From contig NZ_CP125619.1 of the NCBI RefSeq assembly GCF_030053115.1, forward strand, positions 5,665,001-5,729,000: a stretch of 64,000 nt of DNA, given 5' to 3'. Shown here piece after piece: positions 13,904 through 24,570 of the stretch; the stretch's first letter is position 1; the number at the start of each line of letters is the position of its first letter. This stretch comes from Pseudomonas svalbardensis. GTDB taxonomy: Bacteria; Pseudomonadota; Gammaproteobacteria; Pseudomonadales; Pseudomonadaceae. Both the position numbers and the translations under genes were made by a program. The notes beneath the pieces are model-generated. The model was not told where the DNA came from, made no database searches, and saw only the letters and a list, made by a program, of their open reading frames with translations.

Positions 13904-14949
13904 CCCTCATTCTCCACTCTGAATACCGCGGTAAATGCACCCAACTCCTCCAGTTTTTCCCGAGCGAGGCCTGTGTGCAGCGCATCGTGCGCCAGGGCAA
14001 CGCCTTCTTTCAAACTGCGGGCATGGTCGGCGGCGTACAGCGCGGCACCGGCATTGAGCATAATCATTTCCGCGGCTTTCTGACCATTCTCGGTCTTGCG
14101 CTTGCCCAGGGCATCGCGGATCAGCTCCAGCGAGGCCGCCGGGCTATCCACTGCCAGACCGTGCAGGCTCTGGCTCTTCATCCCCAAGTCTTCTGGCTCG
14201 ACCCAATACTCGGTGATCTGGTCATCCTTCAATTCCGCCACAAAGGTCGGCGCCGCCAGACTGAACTCGTCCAGGCCATCCTTCGAGTGCACCACCAGCA
14301 CGTGCTTGCTGCCCATACGCTGCAAGACTTCGGCCAGCGGCCGGCACAACGCCTGATTGAACACGCCCACCACCTGATGCTTCACGCCGGCCGGATTCGT
14401 AAGCGGGCCGAGCATGTTGAACAGCGTACGCAAGCCCAGCTCCCGGCGCGGGCCGGCGGCGTGCTTCATGGCGCTGTGATGGGTCTGGGCGAACATGAAA
14501 CCGATGCCGACGTTGTCGATACAGCGTGCTACCTGAACCGGCGTCAGGTTCAAGTAGATACCCGCCGCCTCCAGCAAATCGGCGCTGCCGCTTTTGCCCG
14601 AGACCGCACGGTTGCCGTGCTTGGCCACAGTGCAACCGGCCGCCGCGACCACGAACGAGGAAGCGGTCGAGACGTTGAAGATGTTTGCACCGTCACCGCC
14701 GGTACCCACCACATCGACGACGCCATCGAGGGTCTTGAGTTCGACTTTGTCCGCCAGCTCGCGCATGACCGACACGGCACCGACGATCTCGTCGATGCTT
14801 TCACTCTTCATACGCATGGCCATCATGAACGCGCCGATCTGCGCATCCGTGCATTGACCGGTCATGATTTCGCGCATGACATCGCGCATCTCATCGGTGC
14901 TGAGGTCGAGCTGTTCGACGATACGGCTCAGGGCTGTCTTGATATTCAT
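13900..14949 (-). CDS. trpD: Anthranilate phosphoribosyltransferase
   Basis: Transfers phosphoribose from PRPP to anthranilate. The 349-residue length is normal. [14 protein letters not shown] is the PRPP-binding glycine loop, and [18 protein letters not shown] the following conserved block. Middle gene of trpGDC, 9 bases after trpG and overlapping trpC by 4. Confidence 0.97.
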
Positions 14950-14958
14950 GAAAAGTCC

Positions 14959-15552
14959 TTAGCGCGTGCCGCCGGTTTGTTTGAGGAAGTTAGCGAACAG
15001 CTCGTGACCCTGTTCGGTGAGGATCGACTCAGGGTGAAACTGGACGCCCTCGATGTTCAGTGTTTTGTGGCGCAGGCCCATGATCTCGTCGACCGAACCG
15101 TCTTCAAGCTGGGTCCAGGCGGTCAGCTCCAGGCAATCGGGCAGGGTTTCGCGTTTGACGATCAGTGAATGATAGCGGGTGACCGTCAGCGGATGGTTCA
15201 GGCCTTCAAATACGCCTTTATCCTCGTGGAACACCGGGCTGGTTTTGCCGTGCATGACCTGACGGGCGCGCACTACATCGCCACCAAAGGCCTGGCCGAT
15301 GGACTGATGCCCCAGGCAGACGCCCAGAATCGGCAATTTACCGCCAAAATGTTTGATCACATCAATCGACACGCCGGCTTCGTTCGGCGTGCAAGGGCCT
15401 GGTGAAACGACGATCCGCTCAGGATTGAGGGCTTCGATTTCGGCAATGGTGAGCTCATCGTTGCGCACGACTTTGACCTGGGAGCCGAGCTCACCGAGGT
15501 ATTGCACAACGTTGTAAGTAAAAGAGTCGTAGTTATCGATCATCAGCAACAT
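14959..15552 (-). CDS. trpG: Anthranilate synthase glutaminase subunit
   Basis: Supplies ammonia from glutamine to TrpE. Class I glutaminase of 197 residues: nucleophile C79 in GVCLGHQ, with the catalytic His and Glu in HPESIL. The start is the ATG at 15552 ([11 protein letters not shown]); AGAGG lies 11 bases upstream, a somewhat long spacing, and the later ATG at 15543 has no ribosome-binding site. It is the first gene of trpGDC, after a leader region with a Trp-rich peptide (15716-15784). Confidence 0.97.
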
Positions 15553-15602
15553 GGCGTTAAGAACCTCTTGAATTCACTGACTTTAATACAGCCTTCGAAT
15601 GA

Positions 15603-15673
15603 TTTACCCGCAGTGTCCTGCACTTTGTCAGTCGCTGGAGTCGCGCTGCAAAGCGGTTTGTCTTGCGGGTAAA
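15603..15673 (-). promoter_or_regulatory. Long-range inverted repeat in the trpGDC leader
   Basis: TTTACCCGCA at 15603-15612 is repeated inverted as TGCGGGTAAA at 15664-15673, a 10-bp stem that would enclose about 50 bases of the trpG leader RNA. On the minus strand it lies after the Trp-codon peptide and a CCGGC-CCG-GCCGG hairpin. A role in attenuation is inferred from position only; no clear U-run follows either hairpin. Confidence 0.45.
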
Positions 15674-15715
15674 GAAGGCAAAGCGGTAAAGATCCGGCCG
15701 GGCCGGCAGAAGGAT

Positions 15716-15784
15716 TCAGGCGCGCCAACGCCAACGGGCGTGTGCCTTGATGACTTGATCCAGAAGTTTGCTGACGATCAACAC
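15716..15784 (-). CDS. Putative trpGDC leader peptide (Trp-rich)
   Basis: A short minus-strand frame ending VIKAHARWRWRA-stop, with Trp codons two apart just before the stop. The tail matches, residue for residue except one, the [12 protein letters not shown] at the end of Gph before trpE. The start is uncertain: I give the GTG at 15784 (22 residues, GAG 9 bases upstream); in-frame TTG and GTG codons exist and the frame is open back to a stop at about 15818. After the stop comes a CCGGC-CCG-GCCGG hairpin. Attenuation of trpE and trpGDC has been reported for P. putida; here the evidence is the sequence alone. Confidence 0.65.
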   Translation of the reverse strand: MLIVSKLLDQVIKAHARWRWRA

Positions 15785-15957
15785 GGGGAAGGTCTCATTT
15801 ATACGTCTTGGCACAGTAACTTAGCTGGGCAGAGCGTGCAATATGGGGCGATCGAAGCTCTTGAAACAATTGACGGGTTCGCGCCGAACGGCAACAGGCT
15901 CTATAGTTTTTGGCACTGTCGCTTTGCTCACTACAACAATAACAAACGGACTTGCTC

Positions 15958-17865
15958 ATGATCAGACAGACGTTGGCTGTACCGCTTGCCGGCTGCTTGC
16001 TCGCTATGGCCTGCACCCAGGCGATCGCGGCGCCCAACCCTTATTCGAATTTCATCGTCTTCGGCGATAGCCTCAACGATGCCGGGCAGTTTACCGACAC
16101 GGGCGGCCCTCCCGGCTCAACCCTGCGCTTCACCAACCGGACCGGACCGGTTTACCAGGACGGCAGCGGCGAAGCCTACTCCGCCAACTCGACCCAACTG
16201 CTGGGTGGAAGGCTCGGGTTTTCACCGGACCAGACGGCCGCGTCAACCTCGGCGGCGCGTGCGAACCAGGGCCTGCCGGACGGAAACAACTGGGCCGTTG
16301 GCGGTTACCGCACCGACCAGATCCTCACCTCGATCACCACCGCATCTGCCACGGGTGAACGCACGCGTTCGGGCTATCTGCCGACAAACAACTTCAGCGC
16401 CGATCCGAATGCGCTGTATTACATCTCCGGGGGCGGGAACGATTTTCTTCAGGGACGTGTACAAAGTGGCGCTCAGGCGAATGCCGCTGCGGATCGACTG
16501 GCCAACAGCGTCCAGGTTTTGCAGACCGCCGGCGCCCGGTACATCGTGGTATGGCTGCTGCCCGACCTGGGTTTGACGCCCGCCATCAATGGCACGCCCC
16601 AGCAGACACCCACCTCACTACTGAGCTCTGCCTTCAACCGGCAACTGGTCACCCGTCTCGCGGGGATCGATGCCGAAATCATCCCGTTGAACATTCCGTT
16701 GCTGTTGCAGGAAACCTTCGCCGATCCGGCTCGATTCGGTTTTGCTACAGGCCAGAACCTGACGGCGACTTGCTTCAGCGGTAACAGCTGCACCGAAAAC
16801 GCTACGTATGGCATCAACAGTGCCAGCCCGGACCCCAGCAAGCTGATTTATAACGATGGGGTTCATCCGACCGAAGCCGGGCAAAAACTGATTTCCGACT
16901 ACGCCTATTCCTTACTCGCAGCGCCTTGGGAGCTGACGTTGTTGCCGGAAATGGCCCACGCTACCTTGCGTGCGCACCAGGATGGACTGCGCAGCCAATG
17001 GCAATCGGACTGGGAGAACTGGCAGGCGGTCGGCCAATGGCGCGCGATTGTCGCCGGTGGCGGACAGCATCTGGATGTCGATAGCCAAAGCAGCGGCGCC
17101 AGCGCCGACGGCGACGGTTACAACCTGAATATCGGCGGTAGCTATCGTCTCAATGATGCCTGGCGCGTCGGTGTGGCGGCGGGGTTCTATCGTCAGAACC
17201 TGGAAGCAGGCAATAACGATTCGGACTACAAACTCAACAGCTACCTGGCCACCGCCTTCGCCCAGTTCCAGCAGAATCGCTGGTGGGCCGATGCCGCGTT
17301 GACCGGCGGCAAGCTGGATTACGACAACCTCAAACGCAAATTCGACCTGGGTGCCAGCGAAGGTGCGGAGAAAGGCGATACCGATGGCGATCTCTGGGCC
17401 TTCAGCACTCGCCTTGGCTACGACATTGCGCAACCGGGCAGCGAGTGGCACCTGTCGCCGTTCATCAGTGCCGATTACGCAAAAGTGGAAGTCGACGGCT
17501 ACTCGGAAAACAGCACTCGTTCCACAGCGCTGACCTTTGATGATCAGACTCGCGATTCAAAACGTTTGGGCGCCGGTCTGCAGGGTAAGTATCAGATCAC
17601 CCCGCAGACTCAAGTGTTCGGCGAGTACGCGTATGAGCATGAATACGAGGATGACACTCAGAAAGTGAACATCGCGCTCAACAGCCTGCCGTCCCTGGAC
17701 TTCAAGCTGGACGGCTATACACCGCAAAGCCACTTGAATCGCGTGAGCCTGGGGGTCAGCCACAAGTTGACGGCCGATCTGGCACTGCGTGGCGGATACA
17801 CGTTCCGCAAGGATGATGACTTTACCCAGCAAGGGCTTACCGTTGGGGTTGCGCTGGACTTCTGA
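15958..17865 (+). CDS. estA: Autotransporter GDSL esterase/lipase EstA (EstP)
   Basis: Outer-membrane-anchored esterase: a type Va autotransporter whose GDSL passenger stays attached to its barrel. 635 residues from the ATG at 15958 (ACGGA 7 bases upstream). A signal peptide ends near AIAA (about 20-23); the GDSL block [16 protein letters not shown] ([14 protein letters not shown] near residue 36) and DGVHPTEAG supply the catalytic Ser and Asp/His; GGGNDF is the block III Asn. From about 350 a 12-strand autotransporter barrel runs to the terminal Phe (VALDF). It sits between trpG and trpE. Confidence 0.94.
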
Positions 17866-17884
17866 TCCGGCAAACAGCAGGCAC

Positions 17885-17923
17885 AAAAAACGCGGCGCCC
17901 TCACAGGTGCCGCGTTTTTTTTA
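17885..17923 (+). terminator. Terminator of the esterase gene
   Basis: AAAAAACGCGGC-(loop)-GCCGCGTTTTTTTT, a strong GC stem with a T8 run, 20 bases after the stop. Confidence 0.9.
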
Positions 17924-17937
17924 TGCTGGGAGGCCCT

Positions 17938-18027
17938 TGTGGGAGCGAGCCTGCTCGCGAAAGCGGTGGGTCAGACAACATCAATGTTGGCTGTGCTGGC
18001 CTCTTCGCGAGCAGGCTCGCTCCCACA
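17938..18027. repeat. REPIN: inverted pair of REP sequences
   Basis: TGTGGGAGCGAGCCTGCTCG near 17938 and its inverse CGAGCAGGCTCGCTCCCACA ending 18027 enclose about 45 bases. This is the classic fluorescens-group REPIN. It lies between the esterase terminator and the trpE stop. Confidence 0.9.
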
Positions 18028-18041
18028 GGTTTTGCGTGAGC

Positions 18042-19523
18042 TCAGGCGTCCGGGGTTTGCTCGGCCAGGGCTACGGCGCGGAACATTGCGCGGCGCTTGT
18101 TCAGGGTTTCTTCCCATTCCAGCGCCGGTACCGAGTCGGCAACGATGCCGCCGCCGGCCTGCACGTGCAGTTCGCCGTTCTTGATTACCGCGGTGCGGAT
18201 CGCGATCGCGGTGTCCATGTTGCCGTTCCAGGCGAAATAGCCAACGGCGCCGCCGTAGACACCACGCTTGACCGGTTCCAGTTCGTCGATGATCTCCATC
18301 GCGCGGATCTTCGGTGCGCCAGACAAGGTACCCGCCGGCAGAATCGCGCGCAGTGCGTCCATCGCCGTCAGCCCTGCCTTCAGTTGACCGGTGACGTTGG
18401 ACACGATGTGCATCACATTGGAATAACGCTCGATCACCATTTTTTCGGTGAGTTTCACCGAACCGATTTCCGAGACCCGACCGGTGTCGTTACGACCCAA
18501 GTCGATCAGCATCAAGTGCTCGGCAATTTCCTTGTCGTCGGACAGCAGGTCTTTTTCCAGCGCCAGGTCAGCCTCTTCATTGGCGCCCCGAGGACGGGTG
18601 CCGGCGATCGGGCGCACGGTGATCAGGTTGTCCTCGACCCGCACCAGCACTTCCGGCGAACTGCCGACGACGTGGAAGTCGCCGAAGTTGAAGAAGTACA
18701 TATAAGGCGTCGGGTTGAAGCAACGCAGCGCCCGGTAAAGATCGATCGGCGCAGCCTTGAAGTCGATCGACATGCGCTGGGACGGCACGACCTGCATGCA
18801 GTCACCGGCCAGGATGTATTCCTTGATGGTGTCGACGGCTTTTTCGTAATCGTCCTGGGTGAAGCTCGAACGAAACACCGGATCAGCAGACTGTTGCTTG
18901 CTGAAATCCAGGCCACGGCGCGGCGTGATCGGCTGACGGAGTTTTTCCAGCAGCTCTTCCAGACGCGCCTGACCTTGTTCGAAAGCATCGTCCTGCGAGG
19001 GATCGGCCAGGACAATCGCGTGCATCTTGCCGGCGAGGTTGTCGAATACCACTACCGCGTCAGAAACCATCAGCAGAATGTCCGGCACGCCCAACGGATC
19101 CGGGTTCGGGCACTTGCCCAGACGCTTCTCCACATACCGCACACAGTCGTAACCGAAGTAACCCACCAGGCCGCCGTTGAAGCGCGGCAGGCCAGGGATG
19201 GTCGGCACGTTGTAGCGAGCTTTGAATGCTTCGACGAAGGCCAGTGGATCTTCGGCTTCGTGGCTTTCGATCTCGATGCCGTCATGGGTCACGCTGATGT
19301 GATGGTCATGAACCCGCAGCACGGTGCGGCACGGCAGACCGATGATCGAGTAACGGCCCCACTTCTCCCCGCCCTGCACCGATTCCAGCAGGTAGGAGTT
19401 GGGCTCGTCGGCCAGCTTCAGGTAGATCGACAACGGCGTGTCGAAGTCGGCGAGGGTTTCGCAGGCAAGCGGGATGCGGTTATAGCCAGCAGCGGCCAAA
19501 CGCAGGAATTCTTCGCGGATCAT
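18042..19523 (-). CDS. trpE: Anthranilate synthase component I
   Basis: Aminates chorismate and releases pyruvate to form anthranilate, using ammonia from TrpG. 493 residues. The N-terminal region contains [15 protein letters not shown], which includes the Trp-feedback-site ESV/S element; the C-terminal chorismate-binding domain contains GTRPRG and [18 protein letters not shown] lies 6 bases before the ATG. It is separated from trpGDC by the esterase gene and preceded by gph, whose Trp-rich end probably serves as its attenuation leader. Confidence 0.97.
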
Positions 19524-19570
19524 GGGGTAGCCTCGTGGCTTGAGGGTCTAACAGTCAGGTATGCAAACGC

Positions 19571-19584
19571 GCCGGTATGCCGGC
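19571..19584 (-). promoter_or_regulatory. Hairpin in the trpE leader, possible attenuator
   Basis: Stem GCCGG-CATA-CCGGC on the minus strand, followed by GCGTTT, 11 bases after the gph stop and about 48 bases before trpE. Its 3' arm (GGCGCG) can pair instead with CGCGCC inside the last codons of gph, which would give two exclusive structures. The stem is short and the T-run weak, so terminator function is inferred. Confidence 0.5.
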
Positions 19585-19594
19585 CAGGAACAAG

Positions 19595-19639
19595 TCAGGC
19601 GCGCCAACGCCAGCGGGCCAGGGCCTTAATGACTTTCAT
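19595..19639 (-). promoter_or_regulatory. trpE leader-peptide segment inside the end of gph
   Basis: The last 14 codons of gph read [18 protein letters not shown], with Trp codons two apart directly before the stop. The internal ATG at 19639 could start a separate leader peptide, or ribosomes finishing Gph could read the same codons. The same tail precedes trpGDC. Confidence 0.65.
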
Positions 19640-20413
19640 CCAGAGTTTGCGAGTGACCACCACGATGGCGTTTCCAGAAGGGGGTTGAACAGCGTCGGGC
19701 AACGTTATCTCAGCGGCCGGATCCAGGCAACCGGGAATTAACTTGCGCAGATCGTCGATCACCAGCGCCGGCGACTCTTCGGCAATCGGCCGGCCATGGT
19801 TATAGCCGTAACTGAGCGCCACGCATTTGACCCCGGCCGCTTTTGCCGCCAACACATCACTGCGCGAATCGCCGACGAACAAGGATTGCGACGCCGGGAT
19901 GTTGGTCATTTTCATCACGAAAAACAGCGCGGCCGGGTCCGGCTTTTTCTGTGGCAGGGTATCGCCGCCGATGATCAAGCGGAAATAACGGCCGATTTTC
20001 ATCTGATCCAGCAGCGGCGCGACGAAGCGCTCCGGCTTGTTAGTGATCAGCGCCATCTCGACACCCTGCTTGTGCAGCCATTTCAGGGTGTCGCGCACGC
20101 CGGGGTAAACCACCGTCAGCTCGTGACCGTCCTCGTAAAAACCGTTGAACAGCTCCAGGGCATGCTCGGCCTCGACCTCATCGACACCCTCGGCGTCGAT
20201 GTGGTTGGCCAAGGCCCGGCGTACCAGCGTGTGCACGCCGTTGCCCACCCACTCACGCACCGATTCGATGCCGGCCGGTTGACGCCCGAGTTTGAGCAGC
20301 ATGTTATCCACAGCCGCTGCGAGGTCGGGGACCGAATCGATCAGCGTGCCATCCAGATCGAACATCACCAGCCGCGGCAGAGACCCCGGGAACAGCTGCT
20401 CAAAGCCACTCAT
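19595..20413 (-). CDS. gph: Phosphoglycolate phosphatase
   Basis: HAD-superfamily phosphatase that clears 2-phosphoglycolate, for example from DNA repair. 272 residues: nucleophile motif DLDGTLIDS near residues 19-27, motif [10 protein letters not shown], motif III/IV KPDP and [14 protein letters not shown]. The core fold ends near residue 230. The tail after that ([12 protein letters not shown]...) is an extension that closes with ARWRWRA, part of the trpE leader. It overlaps rpe by 4 bases (ATGA), so rpe-gph-trpE reads as one transcription unit. Confidence 0.96.
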
Positions 20414-21084
20414 GGACGGGCCAGCGCCAGTTCGGAACGCATCTTTTCAATCACCTCTTGGTAGTTCGGTGCATTGAAGATCGCCGAGCCGGCGACGAAG
20501 GTGTCGGCGCCAGCAGCGGCGATTTCACGAATGTTGTTCACGTTCACGCCGCCGTCGATTTCCAGGCGGATGTCACGCCCGGAAGCATCGATCAGCGCCC
20601 GCGCTTCACGCAGCTTGTCGAGGGTGCCGGGGATGAACTTCTGCCCGCCAAAGCCCGGGTTGACACTCATCAGCAGGATCATGTCGACCTTGTCCATCAC
20701 GTACTTGAGCACGTCCAGCGGGGTCGCCGGGTTGAACACCAGGCCCGACTTGCAGCCACCTTCGCGGATCAGTTGCAGGGAGCGGTCGACGTGCTGCGTG
20801 GCTTCCGGGTGAAAAGTGATGTAAGTCGCGCCGGCTTCGATGAAGTCCCCGACGATACGGTCCACCGGGCTGACCATCAGGTGAGCGTCGATCGGCGCGG
20901 TCACGCCGTACTTGCGCAACGCGGCACACACCATCGGGCCGATGGTCAGATTCGGCACGTAGTGGTTGTCCATGACATCGAAGTGCACGAAGTCGGCGCC
21001 AGCGGCCAGGACGTTGTCCACTTCTTCACCCAGGCGGGCGAAGTCGGCGGAGAGAATCGACGGAGCAATTACGAAGGGCTGCAT
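20410..21084 (-). CDS. rpe: Ribulose-phosphate 3-epimerase
   Basis: Interconverts ribulose-5-P and xylulose-5-P in the pentose phosphate pathway. The start is the ATG at 21084 ([15 protein letters not shown]) with AAGGTG 4 bases upstream, giving 224 residues, the usual length; the frame is open further upstream, overlapping the end of the alcohol dehydrogenase gene, but that reading is not protein-like. [16 protein letters not shown] and DAHLMV carry the metal ligands, and EIDGGVN the final catalytic Asp block. Confidence 0.97.
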
Positions 21085-21163
21085 GACGCACCTTTTTTGA
21101 GCAGAATCACGATGGCGCGCATTGTATACCTCATGCTTTGAAGCGCGCACCGTGACGCGATAA

Positions 21164-22312
21164 TCAGTAGGCCGCTCGGTAAATCTTCTCGATATCGACG
21201 GCACTCAATTTGCGCGGATTGTTGCGCATCAGACGCTCAATTCCCGCCGCTTCCACGGCCATGGCCGGGATGGCGTCTTCGGGTACGCCGAAGCTGCGCA
21301 GGCCCGGCGGGATTTCCACCGCCGCGCATAAATCGGTCATCGCCTCTACAGCCTTGTCCGCCGCGTCGTTGGCGCTCAGATGAGCGGTCTTCACTCCCAT
21401 GGCCTCGGCGATATCTTGCATGCGCTCCACGCAGGCCATTTTGTTCCAGGTCATGACATACGGCAGCAGCAAGGCATTACTGACCCCATGGGCAATGTTG
21501 AAACGGCCGCCCAGCGGATACGCCAGCGCGTGCACCGCGCCGACCCCCGCATTACCAAACGCCATACCGGCCATCAGGCTGGCGGTGGCCATGTCTTCGC
21601 GGGCCTGGAGATTGGACGGATTGGCGTAAGCCTTCGGCAGCGCCTTGGCGATGAGCTTGATGGCGCCGATGGCCAGCGCATCGGTAATCGGTGAGGCGTT
21701 GAGCGACAGATAGGATTCGATGGCGTGCACCAGCGCATCGACGCCACTGGCGGCAGTGACACTGCGCGGACAGGTCAGGGTCATTTGCGGGCTGACCAGC
21801 GCTACATCCGGTAATAGATAGTCGCTGACGATGCCTTTCTTCAGCTGCGCGACCTTGTCGGAGAGAATCGCCACGTTAGTGACTTCCGAGCCGGTGCCGG
21901 CGGTGGTCGGGATGGCGATCAGCGGCGGGCCTTTGCGCGGCACCTGATCGATGCCGAACAGATCCTCCAGCGCCCCGTGATAACCGGCGTAGGCCGCGAC
22001 ACTTTTAGCGATGTCGATGGCACTGCCGCCGCCCAGGCCGATCAGTCCGTCATGCCCACCCTCGCGGTAGACCCGCATGCAGTCTTCGACGATGGCGATT
22101 TCCGGGTCTGGCAACACACGGTCGAAAATTTCGTAGGGGCGGTCGCCCAGCTGCGCCAGCGCCAGCTCGACCGTGCCGGACTTGACCAGTGCGGCATCGG
22201 TGACGATCAGCGGGTTGTCGATGTCCAGGCGTGTCAGTTCAGCCGCCAGTTGCTCGATGGCACCGGCGCCGGTGATCAGTTTGTGAGCGATTTTGAAAGA
22301 GCAAAGACTCAT
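21164..22312 (-). CDS. Iron-containing alcohol dehydrogenase
   Basis: Group III metal-dependent alcohol dehydrogenase, 382 residues. [11 protein letters not shown] is the NAD-binding glycine loop. The iron ligands are seen as D and H in [10 protein letters not shown] and H in [20 protein letters not shown]. The N-terminus ([19 protein letters not shown]) and the C-terminus ([20 protein letters not shown]) are typical of the YiaY/ErcA-like group. The natural alcohol is unknown. It sits upstream of rpe on the same strand and is the first gene of an accessory stretch not in the order I know from P. aeruginosa. Confidence 0.9.
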
Positions 22313-22441
22313 GTGCGCAGCCTCTTATAGATAGGGGAGCTGGGCACAAGCGTAGCTGGGGATTTGCGGTTGTCTGCCATTCAGGGCGCGAATGACATCT
22401 TGCGCCGCCCAAGGCAAGACGGCTCCTCCTGCAAAATGATT

Positions 22442-24570
22442 TCAGGCGCCCATCGCCGGATCACTGATAGAGGACCTGCCTGTCTCGATGCGCCCCGAAA
22501 AACGCCGTGAAAAAGCGCTGTCCGTATCACTGCTAACGCTGAAGTCGTACCAGCGGCCACTCTCATCAAGCGACCATACCCGCTCGGCACTCTGACCGCT
22601 CTCGAGCCGAACCGCCCAAGGGCTGTCATTTCGATAGGCTTCAGGGCGCAGGGTTACCGTGCATGGCTGCGATCCCGTATTGAGCAAACGTACGTGCAAG
22701 CGATCCGCCACGTAATAAACACGAACTTCCGGATGAGCGCCACTTTCCGCAAGCCGTGTGGCATTACCCGTGAAATGCCGATGAAAACCATTGGGCCCCA
22801 GCACCCACAAGTCGTACAAAGCCGGGTTGCCCGACACGTCCCAATCATCTTCCAGTGTTTCGCCAACACCAACCATGTATCGGCGGGGTAGCCGATCAAG
22901 ATGAAGCCTGTCGTAGACATGCAGGACGGCACCTGTCTCGCCATGGTTAACAAAATACAGCTGCATGCCCTTCTCGCCAGGCTTGAGTTCAGCACTGACG
23001 TAAAGCTCATAGGGCAGAGCGCACGAAGGCCGGGTACCTGCTGGCCGGGGTGGCATGACAGGCGTCTGAGGTACTGGCGTATAGTCCAGTTTTTCCTGAA
23101 CCGAACGCAACTGGTCGGCTTGCGCCCGGGATTTGCAACCGTCCAACGTCGGGATCTCATCGTTGGGCGCTGCAAAATCGAAGACGCTCGTCAGATCCCC
23201 ACAAACGGCACGTCGGTATGGGCTGATATTGGGTTCGTCGACACCGAATCGCGCCTCCAGAAATCGTAGTATCGATGTATGGTCGAATACTTGTGAGTTG
23301 ACACGTCCGCCGCGACTCCAGGGCGAGATGACAAAACAAGGCACCCGCATCCCCGGCCCAAAGACTTTCCCGTCCGGTTGAGGCTGCCCCTGAGAGCCTG
23401 GGGGCTTGGGCTGACGAAAGTACTCGAAAGCCATCTGTTCATCCGTCAGGGTGGTTTTACCGGCGAACGATTTGCCGTCGGCTCGCGGTGAGGGGGCTGA
23501 CGGCGAAGGGATATGATCGAAGAATCCGTCGTTTTCATCGTACGTGACGATCAACACCGTTTTACTCCAGACCTGCGGGAATGACGTCAAAGCGTCCAGT
23601 AAGGCCTGGATATACCACCCTCCTTGCACCGGACTTGATGAGCCGGGATGTTCGCAATAGGTTTTCGGTGCCGAAACCCAAGAGACTTGCGGCAACCTGC
23701 CCTCCTTTACATCTAGTTTGAACGACGCTAGATACTCATCAGGATTGCGGCCCGGCATGGTATTGGCGATCCCCTTGTATAACGGATTGCCAGGATTATC
23801 CTTGAGCGGGTCATATCCACGAAAAGACCTGTCGATGTTATTGGCAACCGGATTGCTGGAGGCTTCGTTCGCCCGTCGATATTGTTTGAACGCGCAATGC
23901 AGGTTGTCGCCCCATTCGTCGGGCATGTTCTGATAGGAAATCCAACTGACGCCAGCCTGTTCAAGGCGCTCGGCGTAGGTCTTCCATTCGTATCCGAGTA
24001 TCGAATCGCGCAGCACGTCCCACTCGTTCTTGACGAAAGCAACATTGGCGCCCGTGGGCCCGTTGGTTCCCGTAAAGAAGAACGAACGGTTGCCATTGGT
24101 GCCCGCATGCATCGCGCAGTGATAGGCGTCACACAGCGTAAAAGCTTGTGCGAGAGCGAAATGGAAAGGAATCTCTGCCTGCTGGTAATACCCCATGGAG
24201 TCTGCTCTTTTGTACCTCGGCCATTCGTGCAGTCGCCCATCGCCCCAAGCGCTCTGACCATCGACCCAGTCATGCGGTGTGCTGATCGCCCGCTGGGCGT
24301 TATACATCTGCCCATCAAGGTGATAAGGCGTCAGATGGCTGCCCGACGCCGTTGTTTGTTGCCAGACACTGCTCCCTTGAGGCACCGGAATGGTGAAGCG
24401 ATCAGCAAAACCACGAACGCCGGTCAGTGTCCAAAGTAGTGATCAAAGGAACGGTTCTCCTGCATGAGGATCACCACATGTTCGACATCCATCAGCGTGC
24501 CGGTTCTGTTATTGGCCGGGATCGAGTAAGCCCGCTGAATGCTGTCAGAAACGTTTGTTTCAGTGTCCAT
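22442..24570 (-). pseudogene. Phosphocholine-type phospholipase C with a -1 frameshift
   Basis: Homologue of PlcN/PlcH, which hydrolyse phosphatidylcholine-type lipids. From the ATG at 24570 ([19 protein letters not shown] 7 bases upstream) the frame reads [20 protein letters not shown] and then meets a stop. One base is missing near 24426-24427 (GGACAC-TGACC, expected GGACACCTGACC); with it restored, translation continues as [11 protein letters not shown] to the stop at 22442, 709 residues in all. The rest is intact: phosphoesterase domain (SYQNMPDEWGDN, TYDENDGFFDH) and C-terminal DUF756 repeats. There is no Tat or Sec signal. Either a young pseudogene or a sequencing error in a single C. 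Confidence 0.85.

Follow-up and report, generated by a model that had tools for sequence, protein, structure and literature searches.

Known attenuators and the gph-trpE junction

The trpL leader of E. coli is a ribosome-mediated transcription attenuator, and ermC and catA86 are translational attenuators, in which the position of the ribosome on the leader decides access to the downstream ribosome-binding site (RBS). The window studied here, the whole 64,000-nt stretch of DNA from Pseudomonas svalbardensis, carries on its minus strand the gph gene followed by trpE. As in E. coli trpL, a short leader ORF with close Trp codons near its stop precedes a trp gene, and a hairpin follows the stop codon. 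Unlike trpL, this element usually lacks a U-tract and showed no conserved exclusive antiterminator, its leader ORF is in frame with the upstream gene, and two copies per genome occur where trpE and trpG are apart. The resemblance to ermC and catA86 is that a region of the leader ORF pairs, here by prediction, with the downstream RBS, whereas the signal in this case would be charged tRNA-Trp and the paired part of the leader precedes the main control codons by some 10 codons.

Within the genus, attenuation of trpE and trpGDC was reported in P. putida (Olekhnovich and Gussin 2001, cited in PMC8297930); from what that citation conveys, the same genes in the same genus are concerned, and very probably the same element. 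A study of 3' ends in P. aeruginosa described premature ends in trpGDC beside a potential upstream ORF with a GTG start, which were significant by the %ET criteria only in azithromycin-treated biofilm (PMC8297930). The leader before trpG is comparable in that it also starts with GTG and lies where those premature ends were found, but the trpE leader described here is not discussed in the excerpted text of that study. No paper on the overlap with gph was found in the openly licensed PMC literature, searched mostly by titles and the beginnings of abstracts, and the long-range pairing to the trpE RBS described below is unreported within the openly licensed PMC literature searched.

Organization of the locus

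The features of the locus are collected in Table 1. The gph reading frame ends in ...RWRWRA-stop, and the ATG of trpE at 19523 lies 71 nt past this stop. Two Trp codons in the gph tail (19612-19610 and 19606-19604) are followed by CGC GCC TGA; the first-pass annotation had placed them directly before the gph stop, and they are indeed near it, but two codons (CGC GCC) intervene. The tail also contains a third Trp codon (19642-19640) and an in-frame ATG (19639-19637). The first-pass annotation had mentioned neither this third Trp codon nor the promoter signal inside gph, the leader copy at trpG or the long-range pairing. Taken together, the comparison of loci makes it quite probable that gph runs on in frame, through its tail, into a Trp attenuator before trpE that is complete in itself.

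Table 1. Positions of genes, leader elements and predicted pairing segments in the window
Feature	Position	Strand	Remark
gph	20413..19595	minus	272 aa
gph HAD core, residues 1-226	19736..20413	minus	TIGR01449 PGP_bact match at residues 16-225
gph C-terminal extension, residues 227-272 and stop	19595..19735	minus	putative promoter-bearing linker and leader peptide, in frame
trpE leader -35-like TTGCCT, inside gph	19725..19730	minus	TTGNNN-N16..18-TANNNT search
trpE leader -10-like TAACGT, 17 nt from -35	19702..19707	minus	N17 spacing in 200/207
SD-like GGAAA of trpE leader	19671..19675	minus	near-invariant alignment columns
trpE leader peptide ORF, GTG start, 22 codons, Trp codons 8/18/20	19595..19663	minus
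P1, TCGTGGT over leader start, predicted to pair with GCCACGA 19539-19533	19659..19665	minus
GGTCA, predicted to pair with TGACT 19557-19553	19654..19658	minus
P, GCAAAC, leader codons 5-7, predicted to pair with P'	19645..19650	minus
Hairpin H, GCCGG-CATA-CCGGC, 10 nt past leader stop, without U-tract	19571..19584	minus
P', GTTTGC directly after hairpin H	19563..19568	minus
P1', GCCACGA overlapping trpE RBS (GAGG 19534-19531)	19533..19539	minus
trpE (anthranilate synthase component I)	18042..19523	minus	TIGR00564 above cut-off
trpG leader -35-like TTGCAC	15836..15841	minus	read by eye
trpG leader -10-like TACTGT, 17 nt from -35	15813..15818	minus	read by eye
trpG leader peptide ORF, GTG start, 22 codons, VLIVSKLLDQVIKAHARWRWRA-stop	15716..15784	minus
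Hairpin after trpG leader, no U-tract	15694..15707	minus
trpG	14959..15552	minus	TIGR00566 and NF006462 above cut-offs

The leader before trpE

The proposal that the 3' end of gph also serves as a Trp leader for trpE was borne out. The pattern is more than chance, being present in all 138 readable gph-trpE junctions among 139 fetched loci (L050, cut before gph on the fetched stretch, was dropped before the counts, as were L220, L291 and L292, which had no gph, trpE or trpG match). As in attenuators of the trpL type, a trp gene is preceded here by a short leader ORF that contains regulatory Trp codons, and attenuation, as reported for P. putida, is likely the function of this leader. Loss of the WRW codons with retention of the hairpin, named in the first-pass annotation as evidence against its own reading, was not encountered in these loci, although the WRW/RWRWR ending was partly built into how the leaders were found.

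The leader appears to possess its own expression signals. In 205/207 loci, the 110 nt upstream of the leader start contain a TTGNNN-N16..18-TANNNT match, versus 1/207 in a gph control stretch and about 6 expected from shuffles. An SD-like GGA, GAG or AGG was located within -15..-6 of the start in 206/207 trpE loci. The GTG codon occurred at a fixed offset in 138/138 trpE leaders and 39/39 trpG leaders; in the 69 family-level trpE loci it was picked among in-frame GTGs at listed offsets and is therefore not an independent count. An in-frame ATG after this start was lacking in 8/207 trpE and 18/39 trpG leaders, including the trpG leader of this genome, and ATG 19639 was rejected as the only start. 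The suggestion that a separate peptide begins at this ATG did not stand against these counts, and the start of the leader peptide is corrected here to what is most likely GTG 19663. The Trp codons of the leader are codons 18 and 20, joined in most trpE leaders by codon 8. Trp codons were present within codons 1-14 in 195/207 trpE leaders, and a Trp at codon 8 was present in 0/39 trpG leaders.

Codon usage in the tail is strongly constrained as well. In 127 fused loci, the synonymous entropy was 0.21 bits over 18 conserved leader codons versus 1.01 bits over 125 core codons (p 2e-10), with a conservation cut of 90% for the leader codons and 95% for the core codons; the codon table and codon entropy exclude 5 insertion-type leaders, and alignment A1 excludes L092/L095.

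A second leader before trpG

Among the places listed for the genome (6.36 Mb), the sequence TGGCGNTGGCGNGCNTGA matches perfectly at exactly two, one belonging to trpE and the other to trpG. The trpG leader peptide VLIVSKLLDQVIKAHARWRWRA shares its ending with the gph tail and has no gph upstream. In the window, trpE and trpG are separated by a plus-strand ORF (15952-17865; 637 aa, resembling a GDSL protein at its start and a barrel at its end, as read by eye), and the distance between gph and trpG is about 3.8-4.1 kb in many of the genus genomes. An inverted repeat, TTTACCCGC...GCGGGTAAA, lies between the trpG leader and trpG (15691-15590, minus strand).

Among 59 genomes of the genus, the raw count placed trpG apart from trpE in 40, of which 39 showed a second leader within the 400 nt upstream of trpG, and adjoining in 19, none of which showed one. 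The single exception, G051, carries gph in duplicate, the second copy lying 1578 nt from trpG, and was therefore counted as adjoining. In this genome (locus L128), gph occurs twice in a row before trpE, with matches at 1591760-1592572 and 1593251-1593874. After this correction, the second leader was found in 39/39 genomes with a detached trpG versus 0/20 with an adjoining one (Fisher p 1e-14, a value that overstates independence because the genomes are related). The Trp leader unit appears to follow the break-up of the trp operon.

Predicted long-range pairing in trpE leaders

For trpE leaders, pairing is predicted between the leader itself (codons 4-9 and the area around its start) and two downstream targets, the stretch that follows the hairpin and the trpE RBS. 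Helices P and P1 were first seen in single-sequence MFE folds. Shuffle tests gave modest signals, with p<=0.05 in 30/64 trpE and 1/39 trpG leaders, and with z<-2 in 17/69 trpE and 0/14 trpG leaders of the family set. As these single-sequence tests were weak, swap tests were made, in which the pairing of each leader with its own downstream segment was compared with its pairing to the segments of other lineages. For 25 leader types of the first set, 1 of 5000 permutations was as good; for 50 leader types, P reached z -6.0 and P1 z -5.4, each with 0/20000 permutations, versus z -0.6 and -2.0 for the controls. The second control, that of P1, was weakly positive (438/20000; p<0.05 in 14/60 draws), and its window overlaps P'. 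With one locus per genus in 17 genera, p<0.05 was obtained in 60/60 draws for both P and P1, and in 0/60 draws for an unrelated leader segment used as a control.

Compensated partners were observed between lineages, for instance GCAAAC/GUUUGC, GCACAG/CUGUGC (L261), CACACAC/GUGUGUG (L216) and AAAAACACAUUU/AAAUGUGUUUUU (L276). A helix of at least 7 pairs was predicted in 94/207 trpE versus 3/39 trpG leaders, and one of 5-6 pairs in 113/207 and 36/39, respectively, so that length alone separates the two sets less. P1 looks broken or shifted in three loci (L087, L088, L125). Between genera, the predicted pairing of the trpE leader shows covariation, and trpG leaders lack it. Pairing of the leader with a downstream RBS, the property that marks translational attenuators, is indicated here by the covariation of P1 as a predicted helix. 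A covarying and testable RNA pairing is thereby supplied for an attenuator whose hairpin is without a U-tract.

The hairpin and transcription-level explanations

The GCCGG-CATA-CCGGC hairpin noted between gph and trpE in the first-pass annotation is present at 19584-19571, and its counterparts are nearly universal: a strong hairpin followed the stop in 203/207 trpE and 53/53 trpG leaders versus 63/207 control stretches, at a median of 10 nt from the stop and with 30 (trpE) and 10 (trpG) different 5' arms. Its fixed distance from the stop, along with the title of Olekhnovich and Gussin 2001 (cited in PMC8297930), which announces attenuation for both trpE and trpGDC of P. putida, favors classical transcription attenuation, with the hairpin as a terminator that competes with a fold made by CGCGCC/GGCGCG or by CUGG and the 3' arm of the hairpin; predicted duplexes do contain the pairing of the leader CUGG with this arm. 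Such a mechanism is nevertheless rather doubtful. Six or more T among the 9 nt that follow the stem were found in only 3/203 trpE and 3/53 trpG leaders, on which grounds a canonical intrinsic terminator was rejected, and in two loci (L105/L122) the GC hairpin is gone while the leader, the promoter signal and GTTTGC are kept. The complementarity of CGCGCC and GGCGCG pointed out in the first-pass annotation does exist in this genome, but the two-fold switch built on it was rejected, as the exact complement occurs in only 105/207 trpE and 0/39 trpG leaders. In addition, CGCGCC would lie beneath any ribosome positioned at the Trp codons or the stop, and this fold would thus require that part of the leader to be free of ribosomes.

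A Rho-dependent mechanism appears unlikely as well. It would have the leader ribosome leave when Trp is present, Rho load on a C-rich stretch past the stop, and the 3' ends be trimmed back to the hairpin. The lack of a U-tract and the composition of trpE leaders beyond nt 30 after the stop (C 0.365 versus G 0.199) are consistent with it, whereas the corresponding trpG stretch has only C 0.288 versus G 0.254, and a stall would have to block Rho in some way. The missing U-tract also counts against the reading preferred here, that of a self-contained Trp attenuator acting through ribosomes on the leader, as it leaves the transcription step unexplained.

Possible mechanism

With charged tRNA-Trp in short supply, ribosomes started at the GTG would stall at the UGG codons, and this stalling would raise the expression of trpE and trpGDC. 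For trpE, the route is proposed tentatively: the first half of the leader may pair with the post-hairpin segment and the trpE RBS, and stalled or queued ribosomes may keep this pairing open. A stall at codon 8, or a queue behind a stall at codon 18, would have this effect, unlike a single ribosome at codon 18. In ribosome-masked folding, one ribosome at codon 18 changed nothing relative to one at the stop codon, a queue or a codon-8 stall opened the helix, and the trpE RBS gained only 0.05-0.06 in unpaired probability (34/50 and 34/43 loci positive). For the trpG copy, which shares only the hairpin, a termination or RNA-decay step, possibly Rho-dependent, can be guessed.

The gph tail and its fusion to the leader

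Fusion of gph to the leader is not a general property of the element. Of 201 loci with a gph match (6 of the 207 had none and were excluded), 149 are fused and fall in four genera of the sample, and in the other 52 gph stops before an intact leader; one of the unfused cases (G034/L118) counts little, as it comes from a poor genome in which trpG is also split. In L083/L133 and L232, gph is out of frame and the leader is kept, and these loci are nested among fused relatives. When the fusion label is mapped on a tree built from 128 gph cores, no fewer than 4 changes are required, and well-supported branches force 3 of these. Translation of Gph appears dispensable for the trpE leader, because gph stops before it in those 52 loci, and the fusion is lineage-specific and probably neutral for the switch. 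The idea in the first-pass annotation that ribosomes finishing Gph sense Trp, which would make the phosphatase gene part of the switch, could draw on the fused majority; it is very improbable given the retention of the leader in the unfused loci and the conservation of promoter signal, SD and GTG in fused loci as well.

The position of the tail outside the HAD core was confirmed, as the best-scoring general models (Pfam Hydrolase_like, TIGR01449) stop at gph residue 225 and residues 232-272 have pLDDT <50 almost throughout in an AlphaFold model built on a 16-row alignment. The NCBIfam model NF009698 (PRK13223, phosphoglycolate phosphatase) matches residues 1-272 with 538.9 bits, above its cut-off of 466. 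This curated model takes in the putative regulatory leader (19595-19735) as an enzyme C-terminus, and the annotation thus presents the leader as enzyme sequence. That the tail is conserved for Gph function with incidental Trp codons, as its inclusion in this 272-aa equivalog might imply, is hardly credible in view of the same peptide before trpG without any gph, the unfused loci, the low-confidence fold and the codon-level constraint. The odd conserved tail of a phosphoglycolate phosphatase family model may accordingly be reinterpreted as a regulatory element.

Taxonomic distribution

With Rfam covariance models applied to 14000-24000 at E up to 1, none matched at the leader and two weak plus-strand matches were located elsewhere; identity with an Rfam family, Trp leader included, was rejected, as no minus-strand match was obtained at the leader. 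A covariance model, R1, built on an RNAalifold consensus that does not show P:P', served solely for finding relatives, with stricter filters in searches of more than 40 genomes. It matched 14 of 293 genomes from the order, 13 in the family of the window and one weakly (E 0.007) elsewhere. In Pseudomonadaceae, 109/119 genomes from 17 of 19 sampled genera were matched; the 10 missed genomes count against the reading preferred here, with losses or divergence being possible.

A family-wide scenario is plausible but stops short of being probable. The start and first codons of the leader would pair with the trpE RBS region, ribosomes parked on the leader would control trpE chiefly at the level of translation, the unit would have been copied to trpG without the pairing whenever trpE and trpG split, and gph would have repeatedly gained or lost its in-frame read-through. 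Three further weak R1 matches, without adjacent gph, trpE or trpG (L291 in G350:C44, L292 in G400:C1 and L220 in G321), may be due to chance or may represent a third leader.
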